A DNA stretch of 64,000 nt from Halolamina pelagica (GTDB lineage Archaea > Halobacteriota > Halobacteria > Halobacteriales > Haloferacaceae), in assembly GCF_900115675.1 (NCBI RefSeq), contig NZ_FOXI01000001.1, positions 62,001 through 126,000 of the forward strand, written 5' to 3'. Position 1 is the first letter of the stretch; each line of letters begins with the position of its first letter. Below are positions 18,809 through 61,814 of this stretch, piece after piece. The position numbers and the translations under genes are program-made. Under the pieces are notes generated by a model. That model did not search any database, was not told the DNA's origin, and was given only the letters and a program-made list of their open reading frames with translations.

Positions 18809-18972
18809 GTTCCTTCGCATTCGAACCAAGTGCGGTTTTCTTCTTAAGACTTCCGAAACGTCCCCAATCGACTGCCGGCGCCGGGGTGGCGGCGACGTCA
18901 CCAGAAATCACAGGTTTCCGGTTGGCGGACGAGAGGGCTCGGCATCGCCAGACGCGAAGCTTCTGGCTAGCA

Positions 18973-19155: not shown

Positions 19156-19197
19156 GCTGTCGTTCGGAACTGACTGTACAGTCCAGTGGCGAGGCAC

Positions 19198-20034
19198 ATG
19201 ACGGGCGACACGACACTCGTCGTTCCGTCGTCGTTGGTCCGGGAGGCCGAAGACAAGCGCGAGGCGACCCGAAAGCTCGGGTACGTGGCTCGCGCGGCGG
19301 TCATCTACCGGACCGATCGAATCCTCGTCTTCCCCGATCGGGAAGCCGAGGGCCGCTGGGGTGGGACGTTCGTCCGCACGGTGCTGGCCTACGCGGCCAC
19401 ACCACCCTACCTCCGGAAGGAGGTCTGGGACGAACGGGACGAACTGCGCTACGCAGGCGTCCTCCCGCCCATGCGTGTCTCCCCACGGACCGGCTCCGAG
19501 GGTGAAACCCCGGAGTCGAGAGAAGGAATCGTGACCGAGGTCGGACCTGACGATCGCGTCCGGGTCAATTGCGGACTGCAACACCCGATCTCCCTGCTCG
19601 TCCCGTCGTCGATGACGGTCGAACGGGGGGAGCGCGTCACAGTCAGGGTCTCTTCGCGAGAACCCGTCCGCGCACGGCTCGTCGACGAGCCCCCTTCGGG
19701 GTTCACCGTCGACGCCTGCGGGGACATCCAGGAAGCCCTCGCCCGCGACGACGCGGGCCTGTGCATCGGCACGTCGCGCCACGGGGACGAACTCACCCGT
19801 TCGCGGCTCGCCGAACTCGCCCCGCGCTACCGGGACGGCGCCACCGTCGTCTTCGGCTCGCCGGGCCGCGGGCTTCCGGAGATCTTGGGGGTGTCCCCCG
19901 ACGATCTCCCCGTCGAACCCGACTCGCCCGGGTTCGACCTCTGGCTGAATACGGTTCCGAATCAGGGCAGCGAGGTGGTGCGCACCGAGGAAGCGGTGTT
20001 CGCCACGCTCGCCCCGCTCGCGCTCAGGGACTGA
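19198..20034 (+). CDS. SPOUT-fold RNA methyltransferase (DUF171/C9orf114 type)
   Basis: A 278-residue predicted RNA methyltransferase of the C9orf114/DUF171 group (SPOUT fold with an inserted OB-like domain). Visible features are LRKEVWDERDELRYAGVLPP, the OB-like segment REGIVTEVGPDDRVRVNCG, and the C-terminal knot region GATVVFGSPGRGLPEILG and LNTVPNQGSEVVRTEEAV. This gene regularly precedes rpl3 in haloarchaea, fitting a role in rRNA modification. The ATG at 19198 is preferred over a GTG at 19186. It is separated from rpl3 by 18 bases. Confidence 0.85.
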   Translation: MTGDTTLVVPSSLVREAEDKREATRKLGYVARAAVIYRTDRILVFPDREAEGRWGGTFVRTVLAYAATPPYLRKEVWDERDELRYAGVLPPMRVSPRTGSEGETPESREGIVTEVGPDDRVRVNCGLQHPISLLVPSSMTVERGERVTVRVSSREPVRARLVDEPPSGFTVDACGDIQEALARDDAGLCIGTSRHGDELTRSRLAELAPRYRDGATVVFGSPGRGLPEILGVSPDDLPVEPDSPGFDLWLNTVPNQGSEVVRTEEAVFATLAPLALRD

Positions 20035-45180: not shown

Positions 45181-45870
45181 ATGAGTATCCCCTCGTTCGT
45201 GGTCGGCATCGCCGGCGGCACCGGCGCCGGCAAGACCACGGTCGCCCGCCTGATCACCGAGAGCGTCGGGGAGTCGGTGACCCGGATCCCCCTCGACAAC
45301 TACTACGAGGATCTGAGCCACCTCGACCGCGAGGAACGGGAGGCGGTCAACTACGACCACCCCGAGGCGTTCGAGTGGGAGCTGCTGCGGGAGCACCTGC
45401 GCGCGCTCTCGGAGGGGCAGGCCGTGGAGATGCCCCAGTACGACTTCGAGATCCACAACCGCAAGGACGAGCGCGTCACCGTGCTCCCGACGGACGTGAT
45501 CATCGTCGAGGGCATCCTCGCGCTGTACGACGAGACCATCAACGACATGATGGACCTCCGGCTGTACGTCGAGACCGACGCCGACGTGCGGATCCTCCGG
45601 CGGATCAAGCGCGACGTGATCCAGCGCGGCCGGGCACTCGAGGACGTGATCGACCAGTACCTCTCGACGGTGAAGCCGATGCACGAGCAGTTCATCGAGC
45701 CGACGAAGAAACACGCCGACCTGATCATCCCCGAGGGCGCCAACTCCGTGGCGGTCAACCTGCTGGAGGAGAAGATCGAAGCCGAGATCGAGGGCGAGGG
45801 GACCCGCACGTGGGAGCGCGGGTCGCTCGAAGGCGAGTTGGGCGAGCGGATGTCGCTGGAAGAGGAGTAG
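45181..45870 (+). CDS. udk: Uridine kinase
   Basis: A 229-residue P-loop kinase that phosphorylates uridine and cytidine for pyrimidine salvage. The Walker A motif GGTGAGKT is at residues 12-19. Substrate-site phrases are PLDNYYEDLSHLDREERE, NYDHPEAFEWELL and MPQYDFEIHNRKDERV; the lid region is RRIKRDVIQRGRALEDVIDQ. The C-terminal LIIPEGANSVAVNLLEEKI is typical. Length is normal. A repetitive hairpin region follows. Confidence 0.95.
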   Translation: MSIPSFVVGIAGGTGAGKTTVARLITESVGESVTRIPLDNYYEDLSHLDREEREAVNYDHPEAFEWELLREHLRALSEGQAVEMPQYDFEIHNRKDERVTVLPTDVIIVEGILALYDETINDMMDLRLYVETDADVRILRRIKRDVIQRGRALEDVIDQYLSTVKPMHEQFIEPTKKHADLIIPEGANSVAVNLLEEKIEAEIEGEGTRTWERGSLEGELGERMSLEEE

Positions 45871-45872
45871 CC

Positions 45873-46012
45873 CAGTCACGGCGCGTGAGCGTCGACGACC
45901 TCCGTGTCGTCGACACTGAACCCGTGCCGTGACTGTGCCGAACCAACACACGGCGCGTGACCGTCGACGACCTTCGTGTCGTCGACTGCCCCGACCGATG
46001 GTCGTGACTGGT
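45873..46012. repeat. Repeated hairpin unit after udk
   Basis: A 38-base unit occurs at 45877-45914 and 45949-45986 with two differences. Each contains a hairpin of GTCGACGAC and GTCGTCGAC around a 6-base loop, preceded by the dyad CACG-GCG-CGTG. A separate inverted pair CAGTCACGGC (45873-45882) and GCCGTGACTG (45926-45935) brackets the first unit, and GTCGTGACTG recurs at 46003-46012. The whole lies between the convergent udk and DUF5785-type genes, where bidirectional terminator-like structure is plausible. Confidence 0.65.
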
Positions 46013-56401: not shown

Positions 56402-56486
56402 GCAGGGATAGCCAAGTCAGGCCAACGGCGCAGCGTTCAGGGCGCTGTCCTGTAGAGGTCCGCAGGTTCAAATCCTGCTCCCTGCA
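56402..56486 (+). tRNA. tRNA-Leu (anticodon CAG)
   Basis: GCAGGGA and TCCCTGC form the acceptor stem with discriminator A. CAGCG-TTCAGGG-CGCTG is the anticodon arm with CAG. The extra arm and T arm (GCAGG-TTCAAAT-CCTGC) give 85 bases, type II leucine form. It heads the L18e-L13-S9 operon, an arrangement long known from haloarchaea. Confidence 0.96.
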
Positions 56487-57918: not shown

Positions 57919-58097
57919 GCACGGACACCGAGTTCAACCGGTACGAGAAGGCCCGCATTATCGGCGCCCGAGCGCTGCAGCTGTCGTACGGCGCGCCGGT
58001 GCTCGTGGAGACCGAACGGACCGAACCGTACCTCATCGCGGCAGAGGAGTACGACGCCGGCGTCCTGCCGTTCACCGTTCGACGGGAGGGCAAATGA
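57915..58097 (+). CDS. rpoK: RNA polymerase subunit K
   Basis: A 60-residue homologue of Rpb6/omega, which braces the largest subunit. [20 protein letters not shown] and [20 protein letters not shown] are diagnostic. It overlaps enolase by four bases. Confidence 0.98.
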
Positions 58098-59293
58098 CGC
58101 GCATCAGCGGCGTCTCGCTCCGGCGCGTGCTCGACTCCCGTGGCAACCCCACGGTCGAGGCCGACGTGCTGACGGTGTCGGGCGGCTTCGGCCGCGCGGC
58201 GGCCCCGTCCGGGGCCAGCACCGGCGAGCACGAGGCCATCGAGCTCCCGCCCGGTGAGGCCATCGCCGCGGCCCGCAAGCACGCGATCCCCCGACTCGTG
58301 GAGGAGGTCCACGCGGGGAACCAGCGCGAGGTCGACGCGGCCCTGCGTGGCGCCGACGGCACCGAGGACTTCTCGGAGATCGGCGCCAACAGCGCGGTCG
58401 CCATCTCGATGGCGGCGGCCAAGGCCGGCGCCGACGTGCTCGGGGCGCCGCTGTACCAGCATCTCGGCGGCGCGTTCCGGGGGGAGAACTTCCCGGTGCC
58501 GCTGGGCAACGTCGTGGGCGGCGGCGAGCACGCCGCCGACGCGACCCACATCCAGGAGTTCCTCGCGGCGCCGGTCGGGGCCCCCTCCGTCGCGGAGGCG
58601 GCCTTCGCCAACGCCGCGGTCCACGAGACCGTGGGCGAACTCCTCACCGAGCGCGGCGTCCCGGCCGCGAAAGGCGACGAGGGTGCGTGGGCGCCGTCGA
58701 TCGACGACGCCGAGGCGTTCGAGATCGTCGCCGAGGCCTGCGAACGGGTCTCCCAGGACGTCGGGTTCGAGGTCACGTTCGGCCTCGACGTGGCGGCCTC
58801 GGAGCTCTGGGACGGCGACGCCTACCAGTACGGCGGGACGAGTCGGTCGCCCGCGGAGCAGATCGACTACGTCGCCGACCTGGTCGCGGAGTACGAACTG
58901 GCGTACGTCGAGGACCCGCTCGAGGAGAACGACTTCGAGGGGTTCGCGGAACTCACCGCCCGTGTCGGTGAGGAGACGCTCGTCTGCGGTGACGACCTGT
59001 TCGTCACCAACACCGAGCGACTAGAGCGGGGCATCGAGAGGGGCGCTGGCAACAGCATCCTGATCAAGCCCAACCAGATCGGGACGCTCTCGCTGGCGGT
59101 CGACGCCATCGAGACTGCGACCCGGAACGGGTTCACGCCCGTGATCTCCCACCGATCGGGGGAGACGGAGGACACGACCATCGCACACCTCGCCGTCGGG
59201 ACCGGCGCACCGTTCATCAAGACGGGCACCGTCGGGGGCGAGCGAACTGCCAAACTCAACGAACTCATCCGCATCGCGGAGGACGCTGTATGA
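58094..59293 (+). CDS. eno: Enolase
   Basis: A 399-residue glycolytic/gluconeogenic enzyme interconverting 2-phosphoglycerate and phosphoenolpyruvate. [13 protein letters not shown] is the mobile loop. Metal ligands are in [27 protein letters not shown] and [10 protein letters not shown]; the catalytic Lys is in [14 protein letters not shown], and [18 protein letters not shown] follows. Placed between rpoK and rps2, as in other haloarchaea, so its expression is tied to translation genes. Confidence 0.97.
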
Positions 59294-60048
59294 GCGAAAG
59301 CGAGAACGACGACACAGAACCCGCCGAGGAGGACGTGGCCGACGAGGTCGCCGACTCCGAGGCGGCGGCAGAGAGCGCCTCGAGCGACGAGGCAGAGACA
59401 GAACAGGCCGACGAGGCCGAAGAGGAGTCCCGGTTCGACGAGAACGTCATGCCGGAGGGCGAGGAGGAAGCAGACCTCCTCATCCCGGTCGAGGACTACC
59501 TCTCCGCCGGGGTCCACATCGGGACCCAGCAGAAGACGAAGGACATGGAGCGGTTCATCCACCGCGTCCGCGACGACGGCCTCTACGTGCTCGACGTGAG
59601 CCGGACCGACGGCCGCATCCGGACCGCCGCGGAGTTCCTCTCCAACTACGACCCCGAGCAGGTGCTCGTCACCTCCTCGCGGCAGTACGGCCGGTTCCCG
59701 GCCGAGAAGTTCGCGGACGCCATCGGCGCCCGCGCACGCACGGGTCGATTCATCCCGGGCACCCTGACGAACCCGAAGTACGACGGCTACATCGAGCCGG
59801 ACGTCGTGGTCGTCACCGACCCGATCGGTGACGCCCAGGCGGTGAAGGAGGCCATCACGGTCGGCATCCCCGTCATCGCCATGTGCGACTCGAACAACGC
59901 CGTCTCGAACGTCGACCTGGTCATCCCGACCAACAACAAGGGCCGACGCGCGCTCTCGGTCGTCTACTGGCTGCTGGCCAACGAGACGCTCGACCGACGC
60001 GGCGCGGAGCCCAGCTACGCCCTCGAAGACTTCGAGGCCGGGCTCTAG
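59290..60048 (+). CDS. rps2: 30S ribosomal protein S2 (uS2)
   Basis: A 252-residue uS2 on the 30S back, near the mRNA exit. [40 protein letters not shown] and [20 protein letters not shown] are typical. Residues 1-55 are a very acidic, Ala/Ser-rich extension, long even for a halophile. It ends the tRNA-Leu operon. Confidence 0.97.
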
Positions 60049-60132
60049 GCCCGTCGAGAAATTTTCTGCGTTCGCTTTCCCGCCGGACAGCGGCGACGCC
60101 GTCGCTCGCGTGGGCCGAAAGCGGATGGGGAT

Positions 60133-60154
60133 GTCGGTCGGAAAACCGACCGAC
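60133..60154. repeat. Perfect 9-base hairpin with AAAA loop
   Basis: GTCGGTCGG and CCGACCGAC flank AAAA. The first and strongest of the three hairpins after rps2. Confidence 0.7.
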
Positions 60155-60322
60155 GGGAGTCGGGTCACCGGGCGCCTTTCGGGGGTGTCGACGGCCGGCG
60201 ACGACGCGACGGGGGTCGCGCCCGGCACGCCACAGCGGCGTGCCGCCACATCGTCCATCCTGCACGCAGTCGTACAAAAATTTCCCGCCGCGTGTCTCAC
60301 TCGTGAAAGCGAACCCCCGACG

Positions 60323-60331
60323 GGCTTTTGC
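60323..60331 (+). promoter_or_regulatory. TATA-like element for cupin gene
   Basis: GGCTTTTGC lies 23-31 bases before ATG 60354. Confidence 0.5.
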
Positions 60332-60353
60332 GGCCGCTGGCCGAGGCTGTCCC

Positions 60354-60737
60354 ATGGGCTACCGAACCGTGGAGACCGCGGACGTGGAGCCGACACCCGA
60401 CCGACCGTGCGAGCTTCGCCGGCTGACCGAGGCGGCGGGCCTCGAACACGTGGCGCTCAACCGCTACAGCGCCGCCCCCGGCGAGGAGATCCCGCTGGCG
60501 TACCACTACCACGACGAGCAGGAGGAGGCGTTCTACGTGATCGCCGGCGAGATCGCGGTGGAGACGCCCGAGGGGACGTTCGCGGTCAGCGCCGACGAAC
60601 TGTTCGCCGCCGACCCGGACAGCCCCCACCGCGCGTACTGTCCCGAGGACGCCGACGAGGCGGCGGAGGTGCTCGCCGTCGGCGCGCCACAGACCGACGG
60701 CGACGTGCACGTCTACGAGCCCGACGGCGGGGAGTGA
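60354..60737 (+). CDS. Cupin-domain protein
   Basis: A 127-residue single-cupin protein. GEEIPLAYHYHDEQEEAFYV is cupin motif 1, with His-x-His and Glu as likely metal ligands; ELFAADPDSPHRAYCPED contains motif 2 with the last His. Such small cupins can be isomerases, dioxygenases or binding proteins. Function here unknown. It lies 63 bases before mevalonate kinase and has its own promoter element. Confidence 0.87.
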   Translation: MGYRTVETADVEPTPDRPCELRRLTEAAGLEHVALNRYSAAPGEEIPLAYHYHDEQEEAFYVIAGEIAVETPEGTFAVSADELFAADPDSPHRAYCPEDADEAAEVLAVGAPQTDGDVHVYEPDGGE

Positions 60738-60800: not shown

Positions 60801-61814
60801 ATGACGACTTCGAGCGCCCCCGGGAAGGTGTACCTGTTCGGGGAGCACGCCGTGGTGTACGGCGAGCCCGCCGTGCCCTGCGCGATCGAGCGGCGCGCGC
60901 GGGTGACCGTCGAGCCACGCGAGGACCACCGTGTCCGCGTCGAGTCCGACGACCTCACCCTCGACGGCTTCACCGTCGAGTGGGGCGGGCCGGCTGACGA
61001 GCACCACAACGTGGACGTGCCGTCGAACCTCGTCGAGGCCGCGACCGGCTACGTCGACGAGGCGCTGGCCCAGGCCCGCGCCGCGATCGGCGACCCCGAA
61101 GCCGGCTTCGACGTGACCATCGAGAGCGACATCCCGTTGGGCGGCGGGCTGGGCTCCTCGGCGGCGGTCGTCGTCGCCGCCATCGACGCCGCGGTCCGCG
61201 CCAGCGGCGAATCGATCGACCCCGAGGAGCTGGCCGACCGCGCGTACCGAGCCGAGTCGACCGTCCAGGGCGGCGAAGCCTCCCGTGCGGACACCTACTG
61301 CTCGGCGATGGGCGGCGCCGTCCGGGTCGAGGGCGACGACACCCGGCCGATCGAGGCACCGGAGCTCCCGCTGGTGATCGGCTACGACGGCGGCGCGGGC
61401 GACACGGGCGAACTCGTCGCCGGCGTCCGGGCGCTGAAGGAGGAGTACGAGTTCGCCGCCGACACCGTCGAGACCATCGGCGACCTCACGCGGGAGGGCG
61501 AGCGGCTGCTGGCGGCGGCCGACCCGGGGGGGGACCCCGGCCCGGTACTGCTCGACGAACTGGGCGATCTGATGGACTTCAACCACGGGCTGCTGTCGGC
61601 GCTGGGTGTCTCCTCGCGCTCGCTGGACCGGATGGTCTGGACCGCCCGCGAGGCCGACGCTGCAGGGGCGAAGCTCACGGGCGCGGGCGGCGGCGGCTGC
61701 ATCGTCGCGCTCGACCAGGGGCAGGCCACCCGGCGCGCGCTGGAGTACTCGCCGGGCTGTGAGCAGACGTTCCGGGCCGAACTCGCGACCGAGGGGGTGC
61801 GCGCGGAGGAATGA
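60801..61814 (+). CDS. mvk: Mevalonate kinase
   Basis: A 337-residue GHMP kinase phosphorylating mevalonate for isoprenoid (archaeal lipid, carotenoid) synthesis. SAPGKVYLFGEHAVVYGEPA is the N-terminal substrate motif. IPLGGGLGSSAAVVVAAIDA is the ATP-binding loop, and KLTGAGGGGCIVAL the C-terminal GHMP motif. The catalytic Asp is likely in EASRADTYCSAMGG. It overlaps isopentenyl phosphate kinase by four bases. Confidence 0.96.
   Translation: MTTSSAPGKVYLFGEHAVVYGEPAVPCAIERRARVTVEPREDHRVRVESDDLTLDGFTVEWGGPADEHHNVDVPSNLVEAATGYVDEALAQARAAIGDPEAGFDVTIESDIPLGGGLGSSAAVVVAAIDAAVRASGESIDPEELADRAYRAESTVQGGEASRADTYCSAMGGAVRVEGDDTRPIEAPELPLVIGYDGGAGDTGELVAGVRALKEEYEFAADTVETIGDLTREGERLLAAADPGGDPGPVLLDELGDLMDFNHGLLSALGVSSRSLDRMVWTAREADAAGAKLTGAGGGGCIVALDQGQATRRALEYSPGCEQTFRAELATEGVRAEE

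Follow-up and report, generated by a model that had tools for sequence, protein, structure and literature searches.

The DNA under study is a 64-kb window of the Halolamina pelagica contig NZ_FOXI01000001.1, and all coordinates given here are positions in that window; the genome from which it comes is labelled G000. Around the region of interest, a plus-strand gene at 58094-59293, which we take to be eno, is followed by rps2 (59290-60048, plus strand; PF00318), an intergenic gap of 305 nt (60049-60353), a cupin gene (60354-60737; PF07883) and the gene of an mvk-like GHMP kinase (60801-61814). An earlier note on this DNA had described the gap as the interval between rps2 and mvk; its length is indeed 305 nt, but the cupin gene intervenes before mvk.

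The same note had reported three hairpins between AT-rich strings, and both observations can be read directly from the sequence. The hairpins lie at 60133-60154 (9 bp, 4-nt loop), 60205-60220 (6 bp, 4-nt loop) and 60224-60244 (8 bp, or 9 bp counting 60223-60245), and the flanking strings at 60060-60065 and 60276-60283. A longer fourth helix, absent from that description, pairs 60202-60190 with 60176-60164, between the first two hairpins. When 60059-60284 was shuffled 2000 times with dinucleotides preserved, stems of at least 9, 8 and 6 bp came up together twice. A scan of the real window in 226-base frames, moved in steps of 25, found the same trio at 7 of 2551 positions, five of which are over the element locus and two near 45851. 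At 45891-45914 and 45963-45986, a hairpin-forming sequence, GTCGACGACCT(C/T)CGTGTCGTCGAC, occurs in two copies 72 nt apart.

Reading the gap between rps2 and the cupin gene in seven genomes of the genus Halolamina, we found the element at the same locus in four: G000, G077, G086 and G066. Named strains account for three of these carriers: the pattern of the element matches the records of H. pelagica CDK2, H. salifodinae DSM 26232 and H. rubra CBA1107. The gap of G050 is about 109 nt long and without the element; those of G002 and G030 are about 660 nt each and filled with repeat-rich palindromic DNA, in which the model search found no diverged copy. Nor did this search find a copy elsewhere in the three genomes that are without the element at the locus. 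G000 itself has only two short further matches (37-65 nt), both resembling coding DNA on inspection by eye. Part of the gap in G030 (locus L046; G030:C1:972313-972615) is a palindromic interspersed repeat of about 300 nt with inverted ends like CCACTTGCGACCGC. This repeat gives 76 matches in G030, 73 in G002 and 79 in G066, and between 8 and 35 in the remaining four, some matches being pieces of one copy; its 12-base end is absent from the window, which has one weak 61-nt match at 18874-18934.

Conservation was assessed in 20-base bins by comparing G000 with the other three carriers. The score across 60119-60218 is 0.95-1.00 in G077, 0.85-1.00 in G086 and 0.55-1.00 in G066, and is lower across 60059-60118 (0.75-0.85, 0.65-0.80 and 0.45-0.60, respectively). 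The part at 60219-60258, which corresponds to one hairpin (P2, see below) and the 5' end of the predicted RNA, is conserved no better than the flanks (0.75-0.80, 0.70-0.75 and 0.65-0.75), yet its pairing is kept. Stop-free frames exist in every copy, as expected in such GC-rich DNA. The best frame has an amino-acid identity to G000 of 0.88 in G077, 0.51 in G086 and 0.26 in G066; for comparison, DNA identity of the element is 88% in G086 and 72% in G066. Judged from these alignments, the element is not coding, as no reading frame is kept. The element is intergenic and has no conserved open reading frame, with frame identities of at most 51% in G086 and at most 26% in G066.

What is kept is the pairing. 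The count covered 43 pairs in four sequences, three of them close, and 171 lettered cells; 97.7% of these cells hold standard pairs, in a consensus structure that was itself derived from the alignment on which the pairs were counted. With the partners shifted by 1 to 3 columns as a control, pairing falls to 27.5-52.8%. Four pairs are changed on both sides, a number reached in 5 of 500 shuffles. Further standard pair types show no excess (13 versus 13.2 in shuffles, 423/500). By hand count, six indel events fall within the structure (lengths 1, 1, 1, 2, 2 and 3), all in or bordering hairpin loops; one was set by the aligner at the last P3 pair, within a run of C that is continuous with the loop. 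Five of the six are not multiples of three. Covariation, for which the earlier note had proposed a check, is present in the four sequences.

The same comparison indicates a strand. Within helices P2 to P5, eight pairs are G-U on the minus strand versus one that would be G-U only on the plus strand (sign test 0.039); pair 64/94 is C-A on the minus strand and, read on the plus strand, would form G-U. Folding the whole region (252 nt) gave an unremarkable z-score of -1.08 on the plus strand and a better one, -2.42, on the minus strand. Minus-strand folds of the 138-143 nt core had z-scores of -4.07, -4.89, -5.88 and -7.05 in the four copies (0 of 200 shuffles each), and P2 to P5 were recovered independently in all four single-sequence folds; plus-strand folds of the core gave -1.95, -0.21, -1.56 and -1.41. 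A single-sequence z-score of -4.7 ranks 5th among 1278 windows, and values of -4 or lower occur in 20 of the 1278 windows of this GC-rich DNA on either strand. Because of this background, the case rests on comparison and not on energy. Conservation, structure and strand preference of the element are evident from the alignments, and they speak for a minus-strand structured RNA.

The predicted RNA occupies 60110-60252 on the minus strand and, given its conservation in four species, structure and z-scores, would be about 130-143 nt long with an uncertain 3' end. In the proposed fold, P2, P3 and P4 abut without linkers, a 9-nt linker leads to P5, and a weak helix, P1, joins the ends. The 5' strand of P1 (60246-60252) pairs with 60129-60124 as a weak closing helix, two of whose six pairs are broken in G066. 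P2 (60223-60245, 9 bp; the third hairpin of the earlier note) is paired in 100% of cells, with one pair changed on both sides and three varying on one side. P3 (60203-60222) has 8 bp, which include the second hairpin of that note, and a CCCC loop; 100% of its lettered cells are paired and one pair varies between A-U and G-U. P4 (60164-60202), the added helix, has 12 bp, an internal mismatch at one position and a C-rich loop of 13 nt, and is paired in 95.8% of cells, with two pairs changed on both sides. The predicted folds leave 60155-60163 single-stranded as the 9-nt linker, CCGACUCCC. P5 (60133-60154, 9 bp; the first hairpin) is paired in 100% of cells over the eight pairs counted, and one pair is changed on both sides.

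Sequences on either side suggest where such an RNA might begin and end. Reading on the minus strand, a TATA-like box, TTTTTG (60280-60275), follows a purine-rich, BRE-like GGGAAA (60286-60281). The box is kept in all four copies (TTTTTG, TTTTTG, CTTTTG and TTTATG), which together with the preceding purines read GGGAAATTTTTG, again GGGAAATTTTTG, GGGGAACTTTTG and GGGAGATTTATG; by eye and unscored, it resembles boxes upstream of leaderless genes in the window, for example CTTTTG. With a spacing of about 26 nt from TATA box to start, the predicted start is near 60252, the first base of P1. RNA polymerase would start there and produce a transcript running towards, and converging with, rps2. At the other end, all four copies have CATCCG followed by a short T tract. 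This putative 3' tail (60110-60123; CGCUUUCGG...) thus contains a short U tract at which we infer that transcription may terminate. Transcription itself, like the exact ends, is predicted from these signals. On the plus strand, the cupin gene has a TATA-like box of its own, TTTTGC (60326-60331), whose centre is about 25.5 nt before the ATG at 60354, and would be leaderless. Since this box is also found in G050, which is without the element, the element does not seem to be needed as a cupin promoter.

The earlier note had also named a match to a known RNA as a possible outcome, and Rfam gave no gathering match at the locus. A lax scan returned isrK alone, on the plus strand, with 16.9 bits versus 50 needed. 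Elsewhere in the window, the Rfam L4-Archaeoglobi ribosomal protein leader matches 19547-19646 (plus strand; 73.2 bits versus 34.5 needed) inside a predicted open reading frame at 19186-20034, and ARAGORN places a tRNA-Leu (cag) at 56402-56486 (plus strand), where the Rfam tRNA model gives none at its gathering score. Archaeal RNase P RNA (RF00373) and SRP RNA (RF01857) are structured archaeal RNAs as well, but the element matches neither covariance model, and the genome's own copies are located on contigs C31 and C17. A ribosomal-protein leader or riboswitch sits 5' of the gene that it controls and shares its strand. The element is not one, because no minus-strand gene follows: rps2 and eno, which come next in the minus direction, are both plus-strand genes. 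Guide RNAs are likewise small archaeal RNAs, often with hairpins. Box H/ACA guides have an internal pocket, a K-turn and a conserved ACA box, and box C/D guides have RUGAUGA and CUGA boxes. What tells against the former, by eye, is that P2, P3 and P5 of the element are perfect stems with no pseudouridylation pocket and that an ACA after P5 is not kept, G066 being different; the boxes of the latter were not seen by eye in the core sequence.

The closest resemblance by description is to intergenic sRNAs of haloarchaea. In published work, 395 intergenic sRNAs are given for Haloferax volcanii (PMC6490895), among the haloarchaeal intergenic sRNAs are sRNA132 and s479 of this species (PMC6560208, PMC8155600), and 22 conserved ncRNAs of Halobacteria are reported to be without an assigned function (PMC7002113). 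The element is like these in being intergenic, having a predicted promoter of its own and keeping no open reading frame, and its predicted size falls within the 50-200 nt that PMC7002113 gives for most intergenic sRNAs. Unlike these, it is known from sequence alone, as a predicted GC-rich, multi-hairpin structure with comparative support. Because haloarchaea have many intergenic sRNAs, the element would join a kind already known. The locus was not found among the matches listed in literature searches on Halolamina small or noncoding RNA and on haloarchaeal sRNAs.

Beyond the genus, no homologue was confirmed when the model was run against two overlapping sets, 170 family genomes and 392 genomes from the order. 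At E<=0.1, 27 family genomes have a match, namely the four of the genus and 23 outside it. Two of the outside matches were inspected closely: the best one, in G043, and that in G059 of the same genus (g21), both of which lie inside thiolase-like genes by open reading frame reading; the 21 weaker ones are unproven. All 23 are centred in stop-free frames that span 130 codons or more, which proves little in GC-rich DNA. The order search (E<=0.001, strict filters) gave matches in three of the 392 genomes, two of the genus and again G043; G077 and G086 were not among them. Plasmid and phage collections gave no match at E 1e-3, and a viral collection none to the element as an exact pattern.

In a tree of eno/rps2 DNA, G066 stands beside G050 (93/98), and G000, G086 and G077 are grouped (100/100). 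Presence of the RNA requires two changes on this tree, and 229 of 500 shuffled labellings need no more; two gains, or two to three losses, suit it about equally. As the copies are homologous and at the same place, we prefer a scenario in which an ancestor at the base of the genus, or close to it, already had the element and later lineages repeatedly lost it. The patchy presence also suggests that it is probably dispensable.

Taken together, these observations suggest that the element is probably a small RNA gene of its own, lying between genes and read from the minus strand, and it is the noncoding RNA suggested by the earlier note that gains from covariation, loop-confined indels and the conserved TATA-like box. 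That note had offered a complex end of the rps2 operon as another possibility, which is less well supported, as the strand signals favour minus. Under this account, the hairpins would belong to the plus strand, where, as part of the rps2 3' UTR or as a terminator, they would protect the eno-rps2 mRNA against decay. The element does lie directly 3' of rps2, and P2 to P5 recur when a wider alignment is folded as a plus-strand consensus, in which 6 of 56 pairs have changes on both sides. Nevertheless, the account is unlikely: its covariation term is unfavourable (+1 versus -1.56 for minus), plus-strand z-scores are weak with minimum-energy structures that differ between species, the wobble pattern favours minus, the TATA-like box reads on minus, and rps2 of G050 does without the element.

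A cis-antisense regulator would share the minus-strand transcript with the small RNA gene and would read past a weak 3' end into the rps2 3' UTR, lowering rps2 expression. Convergence with rps2, a predicted end only about 60 nt from its stop codon and the lack of a long U tract at 60115-60123 are all compatible with this; however, the conserved structured core stops before rps2, 60059-60118 is poorly conserved, and such a regulator would have no need of the structure, all of which makes it quite unlikely. It is very improbable that the element acts at the level of DNA, as palindromic protein-binding sites between two divergent promoters or as the remains of a mobile repeat. The other repeat-rich palindromic DNA in the gaps of G030 and G002 speaks for this idea and indicates that the site tolerates insertions, but a strand-specific G-U pattern and loop-confined indels would not be expected of DNA sites, the genome holds no second copy beyond the two short, coding-like matches of 37-65 nt, and plasmids and phages were without a match at E 1e-3.

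For the small RNA gene that we favour, function is a separate matter. The RNA could act in trans, with its C-rich unpaired segments (the P3 loop, the P4 loop and the P4/P5 linker) pairing with G-rich stretches of target mRNAs and the rigid hairpins providing stability. We give this much less weight and consider it doubtful; the C-rich loops are a plausible pairing surface, and a protein-binding role is equally conceivable. We searched four genomes for the complement of the linker region, using one 13-base segment with at most one mismatch, and found 19 places, three of which are the element itself, versus six for a reversed control pattern. Seven places were inspected. Four are at the start of one same gene, on the strand unable to pair; one (L104) falls within what is probably a coding frame on the pairing strand, and two (L102 and L107) are unclear or on the wrong strand. 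The excess comes at least partly from one conserved gene, and no shared target emerged from this one segment in the four genomes and the seven places inspected.

A broader reading, which we hold tentatively, is that the element represents a new family of structured RNAs confined to Halolamina. Its members would be compact multi-helix RNAs that bind protein or serve as a regulator or sponge through their C-rich loops; the family would go back to the base of the genus or close to it, with loss or replacement in several species. The candidate brings comparative structural support along with a predicted strand, structure and ends, and its patchy presence in one genus would make it a means of gauging how quickly archaeal sRNAs are gained and lost.
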